Part shown: positions 1 through 6,274 of the stretch, one piece after another | Numbering within the stretch: position 1 is the stretch's first letter | Layout of the letters: each line of letters begins with the position of its first letter | Source of the DNA: Promethearchaeota archaeon | GTDB taxonomy: Archaea > Asgardarchaeota > Lokiarchaeia > Sigynarchaeales > MK-D1 | Reading direction: 5' to 3' | DNA length: 6,274 nt | NCBI GenBank assembly: GCA_016839385.1 | Contig: JAEOUK010000729.1 | Location: 1-6,274, forward strand | Translations under genes and position numbers: made by a program | The notes under the pieces: model-generated | What the model saw: only the letters and a program-made list of their open reading frames with translations | Told to the model about the DNA's origin: nothing | The model's database searches: none

Positions 1-1745
1 ATGTCCTAAGTGAAAATCTTCAGAATAAACAAACTAATGTAATTCAAGGCAAACCAGTTCCACTAGGATTAACTTTGACTGATCCTACCCGAAATGATTT
101 CCCTGTGATTGACGCGACTGTAGAATTTATTATAAGTGGTAATACTTATGAATTTTTGCATAATGGGAACGGAACATACACTTTTAATTATTTAACTAAT
201 AATGTAGATGCATTTTTCGCTTCAAAAACTCTTATAGGGATAATTCGTATTTCTAAGAATAATTACAATCCTATAGAACTATCAATTACAATTGTTGTTG
301 AAATGCATGAAATACTTCCAGGAATTCCGACTTTTTATTTCTTGTTGATTCTATTTGCCGTGATAGCTATAGTTGGAAGCATTGCAGGTTATAGAATTCG
401 TCAAAATGCAAGAATACCTTCTTTTGTAAAAAAAGTTAGAGCTATGAAAAAGTCTATAAAAGATGATAAAGCTATTGCAGATTCGCTTCTATATCGCGAT
501 AAAGAGGTTTTCATAGCCGAGATAATAAAGAATGAATGGAATAAACTAGGATTATCGTTAGAAGAAATCTTTGGAATAACTCTCGAGAAAGATAAGAAAT
601 CTTTCACAAAAAAGGGAATGTTAGGTTCATCAAAAGAACATGATAATAAACCCCTTGGATTAGTATTAATGAAATGGGACGAGAGAAGTGGTACTGAAAT
701 TAAAGTCAAATATCCAACAGAAATCAATATTTCGGAAAAAACTCTAATGCAGATATATAGCATACATGAATACAGTGGAGAAAAAGGATTAATAACATTA
801 ACAGCAGAAGCTACAAATATCGTATCATATTACACTGGACCAGAAGAGGGGTATTATCTACTATTAATTTTGAACCTCGATGATGATCCTGATGTCTACG
901 AAGGTAGTATTGCAGACACATTAAGAATTCTTTTAGAAAATTTGGAGGAAGAATCTTATATAAAGTTAATACCATCTTTGTTCCAGCGAATATCACTATA
1001 TCCTTCACTTAGCCACGAGGAACTTCTTGCTATTACATATCAAAATAAAATAAAAAGATTAATCATAAATCTTTTAAGAGATGAAGGAGTTGTACTTAAA
1101 TCTGAGCTCTTAATCTGGCTCAAAGATAAATATATACAGGGGTTTGTAGATTTGGATGCTATTTTAAGTGAATTGATTAAATTAGATATTCTAAAAGTAA
1201 GTTCTATCAAAGACATGCCCTCTGAGCTAGTTTTTCTTACTAACGATATTTTTCTTGTTAGAATACCACCCCTTAAATTACTTGATAAGGTCACCAGCTA
1301 TGGCTTACCATCTCAATTTGCCAAGGAATATCATAATGATGTTACAAACTTTTTCCAAACATATCACCCCACAGAAGAAGATAATATAAAAATAGCTGAA
1401 GTCATATCAAATCCGCAAGTTTATGAAACTTTGAGGTTGTTAAGAAGTGCGATAGTTACAAGGGAAGATCTTACAAAACTTCAAAAGAAAGGAGTCAATG
1501 ATTTTTATAGTATTTTGAAAATACTTTATGATAATAAGATGCTAAAAGTCTTTCATGACGAAAAAAATGTTGAATACTATGCCCTTCTCACAGATTTATA
1601 TATTGATTTTATTTTTCCAAAATATTTATTGAAAGCTATAAAATCTGCATATGAACAGAAGTCGAAGGTTAAAAGAGCCTTAATTGAATACCTTAACATT
1701 CTTGAAGATGTCTACTTCAAACTAAAATCAACAAATAAAGAATAA
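1..1745 (+). CDS. Single-pass membrane surface protein with longin-like and winged-helix-like cytoplasmic tail (5' partial)
   Basis: The frame is open from the window edge (first full codon at base 3) to TAA at 1743-1745, giving 580 visible residues; the true start lies upstream. An in-frame TTG at 75 falls inside the beta module and is not a credible start. Numbering from base 3: residues 1-105 are an extracellular Ig-like beta module (NGNGTYTFNY loop). About 108-131 is one transmembrane helix (FYFLLILFAVIAIVG), followed by a basic stretch (RIRQNARIPSFVKKVRAMKK) that by the positive-inside rule puts the tail in the cytoplasm. Residues 217-324 read beta-beta-alpha-beta-beta-beta-alpha, the longin/roadblock-like order, starting at LGLVLMKWDERSG. 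Residues about 349-399 and 470-524 look like winged helices. There is no cysteine. I recognise the tail type from Asgard archaeal proteins; its molecular role is unknown. A receptor or adaptor linking surface to membrane machinery is inference. The next gene follows after 153 bases on the same strand, with its own promoter-like element. Confidence 0.85.
   Translation, partial: VLSENLQNKQTNVIQGKPVPLGLTLTDPTRNDFPVIDATVEFIISGNTYEFLHNGNGTYTFNYLTNNVDAFFASKTLIGIIRISKNNYNPIELSITIVVEMHEILPGIPTFYFLLILFAVIAIVGSIAGYRIRQNARIPSFVKKVRAMKKSIKDDKAIADSLLYRDKEVFIAEIIKNEWNKLGLSLEEIFGITLEKDKKSFTKKGMLGSSKEHDNKPLGLVLMKWDERSGTEIKVKYPTEINISEKTLMQIYSIHEYSGEKGLITLTAEATNIVSYYTGPEEGYYLLLILNLDDDPDVYEGSIADTLRILLENLEEESYIKLIPSLFQRISLYPSLSHEELLAITYQNKIKRLIINLLRDEGVVLKSELLIWLKDKYIQGFVDLDAILSELIKLDILKVSSIKDMPSELVFLTNDIFLVRIPPLKLLDKVTSYGLPSQFAKEYHNDVTNFFQTYHPTEEDNIKIAEVISNPQVYETLRLLRSAIVTREDLTKLQKKGVNDFYSILKILYDNKMLKVFHDEKNVEYYALLTDLYIDFIFPKYLLKAIKSAYEQKSKVKRALIEYLNILEDVYFKLKSTNKE
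324..392 (+). other. Transmembrane helix-coding segment of the first gene
   Basis: About 23 uninterrupted hydrophobic residues (core FYFLLILFAVIAIVG) follow an LPGIP turn and precede a cluster of Arg and Lys. It is the only convincing membrane span in the visible protein. It separates the Ig-like extracellular part from the charged cytoplasmic tail. Confidence 0.9.
651..974 (+). other. Longin/roadblock-like domain within the first gene
   Basis: The translated segment begins LGLVLMKWDERSG (strand 1), then TEIKVKYP (strand 2), helix EKTLMQIYSIHEYS, strands GLITLTAEA, IVSYYTG and YYLLLILNLD, then helix DTLRILLENLEEE. This order matches longin/roadblock-type folds, which in eukaryotes and Asgard archaea act around small GTPases and vesicle trafficking. 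The fold call rests on predicted strand and helix order plus family recognition. No GTPase-contact residue can be assigned from the sequence alone. Confidence 0.55.
1047..1199 (+). other. Winged-helix-like segment 1 of the cytoplasmic tail
   Basis: Helix KRLIINLLRDEG, then VVLKSELLIWLKDKY, then VDLDAILSELIKLDILKV reads as helix, helix, recognition-type helix and short wing strand. This is a common small fold for DNA or protein binding. Sitting directly behind the longin-like domain on a membrane-tethered tail, a protein-protein role is at least as likely as DNA binding. A second similar segment lies at about 1410-1574 (VYETLRLLRSAIVTREDL onward). Confidence 0.45.
1410..1574 (+). other. Winged-helix-like segment 2 of the cytoplasmic tail
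   Basis: VYETLRLLRSAIVTREDLTK is followed by VNDFYSILKILYDNKMLKVF and a short strand pair (EKNVEYYALLTD), the usual helix-turn-helix plus wing order. After it the protein ends in a long helical stretch (about residues 534-575 from base 3) rich in Lys and Glu that could be a coiled coil or packing helix. Assignment is by pattern only. Confidence 0.4.
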
Positions 1746-1898: not shown

Positions 1899-2006
1899 AT
1901 GAAGTCTAGACGAAAAATTTCGATATTTACTAAAAAAAAATTTAAGGTATTGATTTTCTTATTATTTACACTAATTATCCCGATGATCATTAATTTACCA
2001 TTGTTT
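1899..2006 (+). other. Signal peptide or N-terminal membrane anchor
   Basis: The first 16 residues (MKSRRKISIFTKKKFK) carry eight Lys or Arg, followed by about 20 hydrophobic residues (VLIFLLFTLIIPMIINLPLF). This is the n-region and h-region pattern of a Sec signal. No clear small-x-small cleavage motif is seen, so it may stay as an uncleaved anchor. A polar linker of about 30 residues leads to the first repeat. Confidence 0.75.
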
Positions 2007-5000
2007 TCTAATTTATTTGATGGTAAATTTAATGAACAGGATACCAAGGATATAATAGATAAAACAAAATTAACACCAAAACTAAACGCTCCTATAAATG
2101 CTCACTATTTTAATCACTTTAAAATTATAACCATAGATCATAACCAAGTATCAGGAACAAGCGGTTTTACAAATTTTCCTTTTTTGATTTCACTCTTTGA
2201 TACAAATCTTCGATTCGATGTTCAATCAGATGGAGACGATATTGCCTTTTCTTCTAATAATATTTGGTTAGATCATGAAATAGAATTATTTGTTCAAACA
2301 TATAATGGAACGCATGCTAAACTGGTTGTTTGGGTTCGAATTCCCGCATTATCAACATCATTAGATACGATTATCAGAATGTATTATGGTAATTCAACAA
2401 TGAGCTCGCGACAAAATCCTGAAGGAGTTTGGGATAGTTCTTATAAAGCTGTTTATCATATGAACCAAGATCCATCATCTTCCTCTGTTAGGGATAGTAC
2501 AATTAATAATTACGATCTAACTCCTGGTACGGGATTTAACTCGGGAGATCTAGTGGATGGAATTATTGGTAAAGCTATCCAGTTTGGTGGAGTTAACACT
2601 GAATATCTTGAACTTACTTCAGGTTTTTCTAATCCAACAAGCGCCCTTTCCATCGAGATGTGGTTTAGACCTCAAGTGTATGCAACTTACCAACGATATT
2701 TCACTGCAAGATGGAGCTATCCAGATGTTCGTTTAGAAACCTCCAATTTCATTACCACCCGAATCCGTAATAATCTTGGAAATGTAAGTTCTACAACGGG
2801 ATTATTTAACGGTTGGACGGATCAATTTTATCATTTTGTCATGACATGGCAAGGTGGATCGGTTGGGCGTCAAAAACATTATATTAACGGAACGCTTGAT
2901 AGAGAGGATTACGATCCAGAAGCTTTAGGAACTTCTTCTTCTTGGACAGGTTATAATATCGGTTCTGACACAGATCATACTGATCCTATTGGTGGATTAA
3001 TTGAGGAGTTTAGAATATCTTCAAACGCTCGTTCTCTTGAATGGTATGAAACCGAATTTAATAATCAATATGATCCTAACTCTTTTTACTCTATTGGTGT
3101 TGAACAAGATGTCGTTTGGGACCCTCCTAATTCTCAATATTTTACATTCTATAAATTTCTTACTATAGATCAAAATGAGATAGCTGGAAGTGGTGTTCAT
3201 TATAATTTTCCATTCTTGTTTTCTTTTGTTGATGAAGATTTAAAATACCATGTTCAGCCAGATGGAGATGATATAGCCTTTGCCTTTAACGGAGATTGGT
3301 TAGATCATGAAATAGTCATATTTAATCAAAGCTATAGCGATACCGAAGCTCAAATAATGGTGTGGGTTCAAATTCCTTATTTATATTCTACTGTAAATAC
3401 AGTTATTGCCATGTACTATGGAAATTCAACGATGAGTTCTCGAGAAAATTCAGAAGGTGTGTGGGATAGTGACTATGAAGGTGTTTATCACTTAAATGAT
3501 GACTTTCTAGATGCTACATCTCATAATAGAGATGGAGTTAACACGGGATCGGTGGATGTCGCAGGTAAAATAGGTGATGGTCAAGATTTTGAAAGAGACG
3601 ACATTTCCGATAATATTAACTTAGGAACATGGAGCGTTGCTGGATCCCAGATCACAATTCAAACATGGGTTAAGTTTGAATCTTTTAGTATTCAAGATGC
3701 CAGGATTTTATCTAAAAATTCAGGCACAAGCGATGGTGAGCAGGATCATGTTTGGATGCTCGGAACCTGGAATCAACCCCCCGATAGATTAAGAGGGAGA
3801 ATTAAGACAGGAAGAAGTGATTTATCAGGTACTTCCAGTGTAGTTGCTACTTCTGGCGACCTTTCAATTGATACATGGTACTTAATAGCGATAAAGTATG
3901 ACGGTTCAAACATTTATTTTTCATTGGATGGAACCCCCGTCGGTTCATTTAGTAAAACTGGATCGTTACGAATTAATAATTGGCCTATTACGATTGGAAA
4001 TAGCCCAACTGGTGCAAGAGCTCTTGATGCTATCGTTGATGAAGTTAGAATTTCTTCAACGATTCGATCCGATGACTGGTTAAAAACAGAATATGATAAC
4101 CAAAATGATCCTAGTTCATTTGGTACAATAGGAACAGAACAATTAGTAAATGATATCATTCCTAATGCTGATTACTTTGAGTATCATAAAATTATTACAA
4201 TCGATCATACAAAAGTCGACGGAATAGGAAGTCACATTAATTTCCCGTTTTTAGTCTCTCTTTTTGATAATGATTTACGCAATGATGTTCAAAATGACGG
4301 TGATGATATTGCTTTCTCTGCGAATGGGCAATGGTTGGACCATCAGATAGAACTATTTAATCAATCTTATAATAATACTCATGCTCAGTTAATTGCGTGG
4401 GTTCGCATCCCTTATTTATCCACAGCAGTCGATACTCAAATAACAATGCATTATGGAAATGCCACTATGAGTTCGCGCCAAAATCCGTCAAGAGTATGGT
4501 TAGATTATAAATCAGTATGGCATTTCAGTGAGGTTTCAGGAGCAGGGAATTATATTAAAGATTCAACTTCAAATGATTATGATGGAACTCCTTTTGGTAC
4601 TCAATTTTCTGCAACAAGTATTATAGATGGAGCGAGATACTTTACAGGATCAGGTGATAATAGAATAATTATCGATAAAGGATCAGAATTTTTTGATGGA
4701 GATAATATATTTACCTTTTCTTTTTGGGTGTATCCTAATTATGCAACTGATGCAGAAATGGAAGCAACGGAAGGGAGAGTATTTTACAAACAATCTTCTG
4801 TTAGAATGAATCGATTTTGGCGTCAAAATTGGATGCCTGCTGGTGCAGCAAGATATCAATCTGACATTCAATTCGTTACTTATGGTACGACATATAATAA
4901 TGTAGGGATTAATCGATTACAATGGAATTATATCACATATTCCTACGATGGAACCTACCTAAAATCGTATATTAATGGTCAATTAGGTCCTTCTACAAAT

Positions 5001-6274
5001 ATAGGAGGATATCCTCTTATTACAGATACGACTTCCTTTTATTTTGGTTCGTCTTCAAATAGTTTTAAGGGGTATTTAGATGAATTTCGGATATTAGATA
5101 CCTACAGATCTGATGGATGGGTTGCCACTGAATATTACAACCAATTTAGTCCTACTACCTTTTTCAATATAAGTAGTGAAAAATATTCTCAACCAATTGT
5201 AGAAGTTGATGTTTCAGTTAATGCCATTGATTTATATGGTATCTCACTACCAAATATTACAATTTCGATGTATCAATTTTCTAATTTAATTGAAACAGAT
5301 ATTACTGACACTGATGGGAAAATTAGTTTTTCCGATATAATTGGAGGAGAATATAACTTTACTGCAACAATACATTCAGATATCGCAGGAGTAACTGAAC
5401 TGGTTAACATTACTTCACAAGCAATCTTACTAGATCAACCATTTCAAACCATTAACTTAGTTTGCGATGTTAGTACCCATTTCTTTGAAGTAACAGATAT
5501 TGACGGAATTCCCCTGGAAACCGGTTGGATTATGGTTGGAAACGATACTCACACCATTAAAAAGTGTTACCTCGATCCAACCGGACGTACTCGATTTTGG
5601 TGGGTAAACGCGCCTCCTTCCGAGTACAACTATACCGTCTACTACCAGGATGCGCTCTATAATCCTTCCACGCTTGTCCTTACGTCAGGAGATATTACTA
5701 CGGTAAACACGACCATTCACCTTCAAGTAGAGCTAACGACAGTAGAATTTACAATACAGACAATTAACGTACCAATCAGTCCCGTGAGTGGAGCCAAGCT
5801 TAAGTTGACAGTTGACGATCCATTAGGTGCGAGTATTGTTAATTTGACCACTGACATAAATGGAAAAGCCACATTAAGGTGGTTGAATTCTTCAGGGATA
5901 GGTGGGGACTATGCGCTTCAAATTGAATTTTTTGGAGTGAACAGACTGTTTAACGATACGACTGGAGGGCCTGCTGCAGTGTATAATGTTAGCTTCATCG
6001 TGGTTAATAAAGATTCTCTTGAATTTAGAATTTCAATCGATCTGAGCAAGTTTCAAACGGAACTGTTATCATTAAACCCCACAGATTATATTGAGATTGA
6101 GTGGGGTTCTGTATTGAAGTTAAGAGCATTATTTAATGTGAGTAAGGTAGAATCAGGCTATGAGTCCCTCCTTGGTCCAACATATGCGAATTTAATTACA
6201 TATGAATTGTTATTAGGAGGAATTTCTATTCAATCGGGCTCATTTAACGAAGAAATTGGGAATATAGGAAGACA
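1899..6274 (+). CDS. Giant surface protein with three DUF2341-LamG repeats and Ig-like modules (3' partial)
   Basis: The frame runs from ATG at 1899 to the window end without a stop: 1458 residues plus two bases. TGA at 1890-1892 in the same frame makes this ATG the earliest start; the next ATG (1983) would cut into the hydrophobic leader. Residues 1-16 are basic and 17-36 hydrophobic, a signal peptide or N-terminal anchor. Three tandem units span residues 70-413, 414-758 and 759-1100. Each is a DUF2341 domain (DGDDIAF, WLDHEIELF, WVRIP, MYYGN motifs) then a LamG/concanavalin-like lectin domain ending in a DEVRIS-RS-W-TEY-NQ-DP motif. Residues about 1101-1190, 1193-1281 and 1282-1375 are Ig/CNA-B-like beta modules, and another beta module is cut by the window. 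Many N-x-S/T sequons suggest N-glycosylation. It is probably exported and may bind glycans or neighbouring cells. No catalytic residues are recognised, and the ligand is unknown. The missing C-terminus probably carries a membrane anchor, by analogy with the upstream gene. Confidence 0.88.
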   Translation, partial: MKSRRKISIFTKKKFKVLIFLLFTLIIPMIINLPLFSNLFDGKFNEQDTKDIIDKTKLTPKLNAPINAHYFNHFKIITIDHNQVSGTSGFTNFPFLISLFDTNLRFDVQSDGDDIAFSSNNIWLDHEIELFVQTYNGTHAKLVVWVRIPALSTSLDTIIRMYYGNSTMSSRQNPEGVWDSSYKAVYHMNQDPSSSSVRDSTINNYDLTPGTGFNSGDLVDGIIGKAIQFGGVNTEYLELTSGFSNPTSALSIEMWFRPQVYATYQRYFTARWSYPDVRLETSNFITTRIRNNLGNVSSTTGLFNGWTDQFYHFVMTWQGGSVGRQKHYINGTLDREDYDPEALGTSSSWTGYNIGSDTDHTDPIGGLIEEFRISSNARSLEWYETEFNNQYDPNSFYSIGVEQDVVWDPPNSQYFTFYKFLTIDQNEIAGSGVHYNFPFLFSFVDEDLKYHVQPDGDDIAFAFNGDWLDHEIVIFNQSYSDTEAQIMVWVQIPYLYSTVNTVIAMYYGNSTMSSRENSEGVWDSDYEGVYHLNDDFLDATSHNRDGVNTGSVDVAGKIGDGQDFERDDISDNINLGTWSVAGSQITIQTWVKFESFSIQDARILSKNSGTSDGEQDHVWMLGTWNQPPDRLRGRIKTGRSDLSGTSSVVATSGDLSIDTWYLIAIKYDGSNIYFSLDGTPVGSFSKTGSLRINNWPITIGNSPTGARALDAIVDEVRISSTIRSDDWLKTEYDNQNDPSSFGTIGTEQLVNDIIPNADYFEYHKIITIDHTKVDGIGSHINFPFLVSLFDNDLRNDVQNDGDDIAFSANGQWLDHQIELFNQSYNNTHAQLIAWVRIPYLSTAVDTQITMHYGNATMSSRQNPSRVWLDYKSVWHFSEVSGAGNYIKDSTSNDYDGTPFGTQFSATSIIDGARYFTGSGDNRIIIDKGSEFFDGDNIFTFSFWVYPNYATDAEMEATEGRVFYKQSSVRMNRFWRQNWMPAGAARYQSDIQFVTYGTTYNNVGINRLQWNYITYSYDGTYLKSYINGQLGPSTNIGGYPLITDTTSFYFGSSSNSFKGYLDEFRILDTYRSDGWVATEYYNQFSPTTFFNISSEKYSQPIVEVDVSVNAIDLYGISLPNITISMYQFSNLIETDITDTDGKISFSDIIGGEYNFTATIHSDIAGVTELVNITSQAILLDQPFQTINLVCDVSTHFFEVTDIDGIPLETGWIMVGNDTHTIKKCYLDPTGRTRFWWVNAPPSEYNYTVYYQDALYNPSTLVLTSGDITTVNTTIHLQVELTTVEFTIQTINVPISPVSGAKLKLTVDDPLGASIVNLTTDINGKATLRWLNSSGIGGDYALQIEFFGVNRLFNDTTGGPAAVYNVSFIVVNKDSLEFRISIDLSKFQTELLSLNPTDYIEIEWGSVLKLRALFNVSKVESGYESLLGPTYANLITYELLLGGISIQSGSFNEEIGNIGR
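2106..3137 (+). repeat. DUF2341-LamG unit 1 of 3
   Basis: Residues 70-413 of the giant protein. The DUF2341 part (about 70-177) shows DGDDIAF, WLDHEIELF, VWVRIP and MYYGNSTMSSRQN. The LamG part (178-400) opens VWDSSYKAVYHMN and has SIEMWFRP, the strand HYINGTL and the closing IEEFRISSNARS. The tail SIGVEQ leads into a short Pro-rich linker to unit 2. By hand count about 74 of 110 residues in the DUF2341 part match unit 3. Confidence 0.85.
3138..4172 (+). repeat. DUF2341-LamG unit 2 of 3
   Basis: Residues 414-758. It starts YFTFYKFLTIDQ, aligned with the YF-start of unit 1 exactly 1032 bases earlier. The DUF2341 part keeps DGDDIAF, WLDHEI, WVQIPYL and MYYGNSTMSSRE. The LamG part (522-744) has TIQTWVKFES, WYLIAIKYDG and the end motif VDEVRISSTIRS, closing with TIGTEQ. 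It is the most diverged of the three in its lectin half, and lacks much of the beta-strand text seen in units 1 and 3. Confidence 0.85.
4173..5198 (+). repeat. DUF2341-LamG unit 3 of 3
   Basis: Residues 759-1100, starting YFEYHKIITIDH 1035 bases after unit 2. The DUF2341 part has DGDDIAF, WLDHQIELF, WVRIPYL and MHYGNATMSSRQN, with His replacing the first Tyr of MYYGN. The LamG part (867-1092) has FTFSFWVYPN, WNYITYSYDG, SYINGQL and the closing LDEFRILDTYRS. It ends in FNISSEK rather than the SIG-EQ of the other units, and goes straight into the Ig-like region. Confidence 0.85.
5199..6274 (+). other. Ig/CNA-B-like beta module region of the giant protein
   Basis: Residues 1101-1458. Module A (about 1101-1190) has the DTDGKISFSDIIGGEYNFTA pattern typical of CNA-B or carboxypeptidase-regulatory-like folds. 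Module B (about 1193-1281) reads THFFEVTDIDGIPLETGW, then DPTGRTRFWWVNAPPSEYNY. Module C (about 1282-1375) has SGAKLKLTVDDPLG and TDINGKATLRW, the same Asp-x-x-Gly-turn signature. A further beta-rich module starts near 1376 (EFRISIDLSKF) and is cut by the window. Such modules usually act as stalks that lift binding domains off the membrane. Confidence 0.65.

Follow-up and report, generated by a model that had tools for sequence, protein, structure and literature searches.

A predicted longin–winged helix tail on Asgard archaeal surface receptors and its gene linkage to small GTPases

What could a longin domain and two winged helices do on the cytoplasmic side of an archaeal surface protein? 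The question is raised by the window, i.e., the whole stretch of 6,274 nt analysed here, in which an earlier sequence-only reading had noticed such a tail, an observation that our analysis confirms. The answer that we favour, with a probability of roughly 0.6, is that the protein is an Asgard surface receptor which crosses the membrane once and has a cytoplasmic tail that regulates small GTPases. Outside the cell there would be a large stalk of LamG/DUF2341 (lectin-like) and other beta modules, and inside a longin-winged helix-winged helix module. The longin domain would pair with a small GTPase, either an Arf-like partner, through the longin-like domain at the N-terminus of the latter, or a different one; on binding of a surface or glycan by the outer part, the module would hold or switch the GTPase at the inner face of the membrane, and the winged helices would act as protein-binding arms rather than as DNA binders. 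The predicted fold, the topology signals, the split and fused gene arrangements and the linkage to GTPase genes are observed; three parts of the proposal are our inference, namely that the module contacts the GTPase, what the outer part binds, and in which direction the GTPase is regulated. An exchange factor or a scaffold, rather than an arginine-finger GAP, would be our guess for the type of regulator.

Receptor layout and predicted fold of the tail

The features of the window, all on the forward (+) strand, are as follows.

3..1745 (+): receptor copy 1, C-terminal 580 residues (5' end open, stop codon included)
3..326 (+): last portion of the extracellular part (beta-rich by eye)
327..392 (+): transmembrane helix (hydrophobic stretch with a basic inner flank)
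393..641 (+): juxtamembrane tail (HMM matches; in split loci the separate membrane partner ends in a homologous tail)
642..1742 (+): longin-winged helix-winged helix module, 367 residues (60-63% identity to a stand-alone protein of ~367 aa among the matches listed)
657..995 (+): longin domain, module residues 6-118 (AlphaFold2 model, fold search)
1014..1265 (+): winged helix 1, module residues ~125-208 (AlphaFold2 model, fold search)
1374..1613 (+): winged helix 2, module residues ~245-324 (AlphaFold2 model; Pfam HTH families in relatives)
1620..1739 (+): two C-terminal helices, module residues 327-366 (AlphaFold2 model)
1899..6272 (+): receptor copy 2, N-terminal 1458 residues (3' end open)

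The 20 residues before the transmembrane helix contain no K/R and three D/E, and the 20 residues after it contain eight K/R and no D/E; from this balance the long C-terminal part should be cytoplasmic. N-glycosylation sequons were dropped as topology evidence because the signal is weak (191 compared to 129 reversed motifs outside and 29 compared to 26 inside in 30 fused proteins), and the second ORF of the window has 21 sequons compared to 23 reversed motifs. The portion before the helix had been described as an Ig-like module, which we could not confirm, this segment having no Pfam match. The nearest relative of receptor copy 1 among the matches listed, P0002, is 90% identical, has 921 aa and extends further towards the N-terminus.

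In the ORF at 1899-6272 the Pfam scan detects, after an N-terminal hydrophobic segment, three DUF2341 and three LamG stretches and, below the cut-off, a carboxypeptidase-regulatory-like stretch. This ORF shares 66% identity, over its length, with the ORF downstream of the fused receptor of locus L001, whose module is the nearest counterpart of the window module among the loci (81%). The overall plan is seen in a full-length protein of 2095 aa in L003, which runs from an N-terminal hydrophobic segment to a transmembrane helix, a juxtamembrane tail and the longin-winged helix-winged helix module, its DUF2341, LamG and carboxypeptidase-regulatory-like matches being sub-threshold or weak. The ORF at 1899-6272 is thus the beginning of a second, tandem receptor of this kind, and the window is a junction within a tandem receptor array. 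Genome G113 has four fused receptor copies among the matches listed, spaced by ~8.3 kb.

The AlphaFold2 model of the module shows the longin order first, followed by two winged helices and two further helices, and the b-b-a-b-b-b-a-a fold that defines the Longin domain superfamily is present in this prediction. When the whole module is used as a Foldseek query, the top five matches are all chains of GATOR1/SEAC entries (8fw5_C, E 3.1e-4; 8adl_S, 6.5e-4; 9o5d_D, 7.2e-4; 9o5a_H, 1.7e-3; 7t3a_C, 1.8e-3), followed by Fuzzy-Inturned, more GATOR1/SEAC chains, DENND10, Ykt6, DENND1A, Sec22b and roadblocks, with the Lokiarchaeial longin 8yqg_B at rank 46. Chain 8adl_S is Npr2, and entries 9o5d, 9o5a and 7t3a contain NPRL2; the identities of the GATOR1/SEAC chains other than 8adl_S are taken from the contents of the entries and are probable to that extent. 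The VIA-align matches listed cover hardly more than the longin part, with VAMP7 (12.0), 9o5a_H (11.9) and Ykt6 (11.6) tied. A roadblock fold, which the sequence-only reading had offered beside the longin, is not the best match in either search, longins scoring higher than roadblocks in both. Structure prediction, fold search and the charge of the helix flanks together argue for a longin and two winged helices inside the cell on a single-pass surface protein, as that reading had proposed.

By sequence the module yields sub-threshold matches in Pfam and none in NCBIfam or in the PDB. Its winged-helix domains appear in the model, in the fold search and as Pfam HTH families in relatives, and its alignment across 45 family members contains four invariant positions (W12, G17, P25, P326) and four nearly invariant ones (D13, H42, Y63, G66). 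Both the model and the fold search describe the C-terminal half alone as ordinary winged helices. Winged helices often bind DNA, and one could suppose that the protein is a membrane-tethered transcription factor, with sensing by the surface part, DNA held at the membrane by the winged helices, and a longin domain that dimerises or binds a ligand. The winged helices of relatives do match Pfam TrmB/HTH_5/TFIIE_alpha, a broad profile (A4, built from 45 chosen sequences) reaches mainly winged-helix regulators in the PDB, with a best E of 0.0029 for the ArsR/MarR type that the fold also recalls, and some sources name relatives of the module as ArsR/MarR regulators. However, the recognition-helix stretches of the 45 members have mean net charges of -1.09 and -0.31 (range -4 to +4) and are thus not basic on average, and the recurrent partner gene of the module is a GTPase or a membrane protein. 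We consider a transcription factor unlikely.

The same half of the module raises a second alternative, namely a scaffold for membrane remodelling or sorting that combines ESCRT-II-like winged helices with a longin, so that the receptor would mark membrane patches and GTPases would not be directly involved. Longins are found in adaptor and SNARE proteins, and the first match in the fold search with the winged-helix half is the ESCRT-II chain 2zme_A. Its E of 0.021 is weak, however, with ArsR-type matches close behind, and such a scaffold would leave the GTPase operons described below unexplained. To this alternative we assign the lowest probability of those considered.

Split and fused forms of the receptor

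The search for relatives of the window module gave 452 matches, of which the best 120 were listed; 45 of these together with the window module form the set A2. Among the matches listed are both fused membrane proteins and the stand-alone protein of ~367 residues. In order to examine the gene arrangement, Lokiarchaeial loci were collected with two peptide baits (102 relatives, 80 kept, 70 loci); all of the loci are titled Lokiarchaeota or Lokiarchaeia, and the list is therefore uninformative on other lineages. In 15 cases the module lies in one ORF with the juxtamembrane part. Mostly, however, the module is a separate gene in Lokiarchaeia: 62 separate module genes, all different in sequence, have their N-terminus in view, and 57 of them begin 2-6 nt past the last sense codon of an upstream membrane-protein gene (33 with a one-base overlap of stop and start, 16 abutting and eight with a gap of 2-3 nt). 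According to HMM matches, the membrane protein upstream of these 57 genes has a juxtamembrane tail homologous to that of the window protein. Two further module genes (L048, L053), cut by the contig end, directly follow an acidic tail like that of the membrane protein of L058, and three (L008:331-1449, L009:350-1483 and L025:261-1379, all +) have no membrane-protein gene directly upstream, each of them preceding a split receptor-module pair. The upstream proteins, where uncut, are mostly 1200-1600 aa long; for seven of them hydropathy indicates no helix within the final 120 residues, and their juxtamembrane match lies further in. In L063 the partner upstream of the split module is an ORF of 187 aa (5435-5995, +), which may be a receptor part that is minimal or has decayed. 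Split cassettes are closely followed by a RuBisCO large-chain-like gene (L004:7218-8540 and its cluster, present in 39 of the 70 loci), the L004 member being the one scanned.

In a tree of 75 sequences, the fused modules form one clade (support 100/100) inside the Lokiarchaeial split forms; the L021 sequence, labelled separate within that clade, comes from a fused ORF that the end of its contig truncates. The simplest history suggested by the tree is a single fusion of a pre-existing two-gene receptor. The module itself is more widespread. Searched with the stand-alone protein P0058 at E up to 1e-10, 156 of the 227 genomes in the phylum contain a match, and named relatives include Jord-, Frey-, Ran-, Odin-, Njord-, Hel- and Thorarchaeial proteins. 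Large membrane proteins with a helix near the C-terminal end also adjoin the module on the same strand in several other lineages (for example, L108, L110, L114 and L117), and the juxtamembrane part is matched in those of L108 (5e-9), L110 (6e-9) and L117 (2e-9). Both a membrane protein and a GTPase lie within 2.5 kb of the module in L108, L114 and L115.

Small GTPase genes beside the module

The neighbours of the module genes were surveyed in 110 loci, the distant regions being picked by module matches and not by their neighbours; L102 and L111 contribute no module gene to the count, the former having no match and the latter having lost its module gene in ORF selection. A small GTPase gene lies directly downstream on the same strand, within less than 50 nt, of 14 of the 127 module genes compared to one of the 526 other genes of the loci (Fisher p 7.6e-10, which is a guide only since the loci are related). 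The GTPase adjoins the module gene, from overlap to a gap of 3 nt, in L106, L107, L118, L121-L128 and L131, and in L133 and L134 it does so for the first of their module genes; in L135 it lies 62 nt downstream. Any downstream GTPase neighbour is found for 36/127 module genes and 24/526 others. No enrichment is seen upstream of the module genes (6/97 compared to 30/519 others), and no GTPase lies within 2.5 kb for 16 of the 44 distant module genes listed. A recurrent gene linkage to a small GTPase, of the kind looked for in a small-GTPase regulator, is thus observed. The sequence-only reading had suggested a connection to GTPases as an inference, which now gains support from genomic context, both from these counts and from the GTPases beside Lokiarchaeial receptors described below.

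Nine of the 14 direct operons belong to one Jord/Frey-like group, and the others are L127/L128 (Ran-like, 38-41%), L131 (with L135) and L133/L134 (Hel-like, 33-34%); lineage labels here reflect the best identity to named proteins and are loose below ~45%. Because the 14 cases are related, we count them as about four lineage groups. The operon GTPase of L107 (1156-2010, beside the module gene at 67-1149), which was the one scanned, is Arf-like with ~130 N-terminal residues, a domain that we read from its sequence as a probable longin. The Hel-like loci have a gene triple (L133:3679-7442, L134:5389-8979) that encodes a protein of 341-359 aa, the GTPase and a module protein of 534-575 aa. The first of these proteins matches the longin part alone, and the arrangement is reminiscent of a complex of two longin proteins and a GTPase. 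Jord/Frey-like operons contain, after the GTPase, a third small gene of 107-114 aa (L107:2037-2357, L118:8750-9091, L123:7541-7882); the two members scanned have sub-threshold Pfam matches of coiled-coil type only.

A GTPase is present in 24 of the 70 Lokiarchaeial loci (6 of 15 fused, 18 of 55 split) and was not found within the stretch examined in the other 46, many of which are cut by contig ends. For comparison, two single-contig genomes of 3.3 and 2.3 Mb have 72 and 52 Roc-family matches, or about one per 45 kb. GTPase genes near Lokiarchaeial receptors frequently have the opposite orientation. Of the six beside fused receptors, five lie within ~1.3 kb past the receptor and that of L029 within 40 nt, on the opposite strand. 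Three of them were scanned and are Ras-like, with roadblock or MAPKK1_Int matches below the Pfam cut-offs; downstream of the fused receptor of genome G002, at a distance of 491 nt, is an Arf-like GTPase ORF of 643 aa. A conserved protein of ~292 aa lies between fused receptor and GTPase (L003:7223-8098, L007:7224-8099, L014:5240-6115, L015:2526-3398 and L031:7218-8093, all -), the L003 member having no Pfam match, and an ORF of 686-687 aa is also found beside fused receptors (G001 C1:421870-423396, L103:10891-12951), with two Roc-family GTPase matches in G001. Where the cassettes are split, the GTPase often sits between two of them, and the scanned ones are best matched by Arf in three of four cases, the second GTPase of L062 being best matched by Ras. 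One GTPase ORF (L065:7201-8799, -) has three TSP3_bac repeat matches in its C-terminal part, which is odd for a cytosolic protein.

When the L107 operon GTPase is used as a query among the 30-44 matches per genome, the GTPase between split cassettes ranks first in G002 and G004, second in G003 and third in G001; the best match in G001 and G003 is not beside any module gene found there. An HMM of the N-terminal domain of the operon GTPases matches all 17 split-locus GTPases tried (E 1e-14 to 7e-7), which are included in the 24 of 36 other GTPase N-terminal parts that it matches, and has no match in the GTPases beside the fused receptors of L003, L007, L014, L029 and L031. One GTPase type therefore accompanies the module across lineages, and a second type is often found beside fused receptors.

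The linkage might also be a hitch-hiking accident, with the role of the tail unrelated to GTPases, for example the structural anchoring of an adhesin. The relatedness of the loci by descent and the 46 Lokiarchaeial loci with no GTPase found are consistent with such an accident. However, it would have to account for overlapping genes in about four lineage groups, for the same GTPase type in different arrangements and for a tail that is 60% identical across fused and separate forms, and we regard it as quite improbable. A regulator of small GTPases remains the preferred function: since relatives of the module adjoin small GTPase genes, the cell surface may signal straight to a GTPase switch.

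Relation to NPRL2/NPRL3 and other longin proteins

NPRL2 and NPRL3 have a longin first and then further domains including winged helices; they form a complex with DEPDC5/Iml1 and act on Rag GTPases, and NPRL2 provides a catalytic arginine finger as a GAP. The Asgard module resembles them in its longin-first order, in its length and in the top five Foldseek matches, with the best E given above. Unlike them, it is membrane-anchored, has Arf-like or Ras-like GTPases as gene neighbours, and lacks a Pfam NPR2/NPR3 match. The Pfam models NPR2 and NPR3 have no match over the cut-off in any of the 227 Asgard genomes or in the window's tail. The five GATOR1/SEAC matches extend over 329-435 alignment columns with whole-module TM-scores of only 0.16-0.23, and no GATOR1 chain is among the best 50 matches listed for the winged-helix half alone. 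The hhalign comparison of the module with NPRL2 gave a probability of 0.2% and E 0.27, a test that is insensitive because the profile used for NPRL2 draws on vertebrate sequences alone (Neff 1.5) and the same run also missed the module against the GTPase N-terminal domains. Between module residues 24 and 127, no alignment column is basic in at least 75% of the 45 members (compared by sequence, with no residue-level structural alignment), and an NPRL2-style arginine-finger GAP therefore looks less likely than the exchange factor or scaffold mentioned above. Because the C-terminal half consists of ordinary winged helices, the resemblance to NPRL2/3 rests on the domain order and on a longin fold that is widespread. 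Placing the module in the NPRL2/NPRL3 family finds no support in the sequence tests. A figure legend lists 'longin domain' and 'NPRL2-like longin domain' among the families enriched in Ca. L. ossiferum (PMC9834061); an NPRL2-like longin label thus exists for Asgard proteins, and the proteins that it covers are not evident from the legend. It remains a tentative and rather doubtful idea that there is a shared Asgard surface-to-GTPase axis of receptor, module and GTPase, encoded by separate genes of an operon in several lineages and with receptor and module fused in Lokiarchaeia, and that the module would be a prokaryotic relative of NPRL2/NPRL3 type.

The eukaryotic longin-GTPase pairs (SRX-SR beta, Mon1-Ccz1-Rab7 and the small coat chains with Arf1) share with the module the longin fold and a longin platform that holds a small GTPase, and several of their chains are among the fold-search matches; the PDB search by sequence gave no match between them and the Asgard module. 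We know of no such pair reported as the tail of a LamG surface receptor. Fusions of longin with Arf and of roadblock with GTPases are reported for Lokiarchaeum and MK-D1 (PMC4917890, PMC10933270), the Lokiarchaeal longin-Arf fusions in the former, and the GTPases neighbouring the module look similar, whereas the parts of these papers that we consulted do not connect the GTPases with a receptor or with any longin-winged helix protein. The ESCRT survey describes Asgard proteins with Vps28-C, adaptin-appendage and longin domains, in which the longin is likewise combined with other domains including Ig-like and HTH/PCI, but in the sections consulted these are Vps28-C or appendage proteins and not transmembrane LamG receptors (PMC10936438). 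The literature searched contains no description of a transmembrane longin receptor in Asgard archaea, and none of an Asgard longin receptor was found in the consulted portions of PMC10936438, PMC10933270, PMC4917890 and PMC11291895.

Asgard archaea, relatives of our own eukaryotic cells, have numerous small GTPases in their genomes, for which few partners are known. According to the text consulted, the GTPase genes of MK-D1 are generally not in operons with roadblock, longin or TRAPPC3 genes, and the missing operons make it difficult to pair these GTPases with GAPs or GEFs (PMC10933270); a review raises the question of whether the targets of Loki GTPases can be read from operons (PMC4917890). 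In about four of the Asgard lineage groups, a specific module gene stands directly next to a specific GTPase gene, which provides defined pairs for testing, and in Lokiarchaeia the same module is joined to a surface receptor. If both the shared axis and the NPRL2/NPRL3-type kinship were true, receptor-coupled small-GTPase signalling would be older than eukaryotes.
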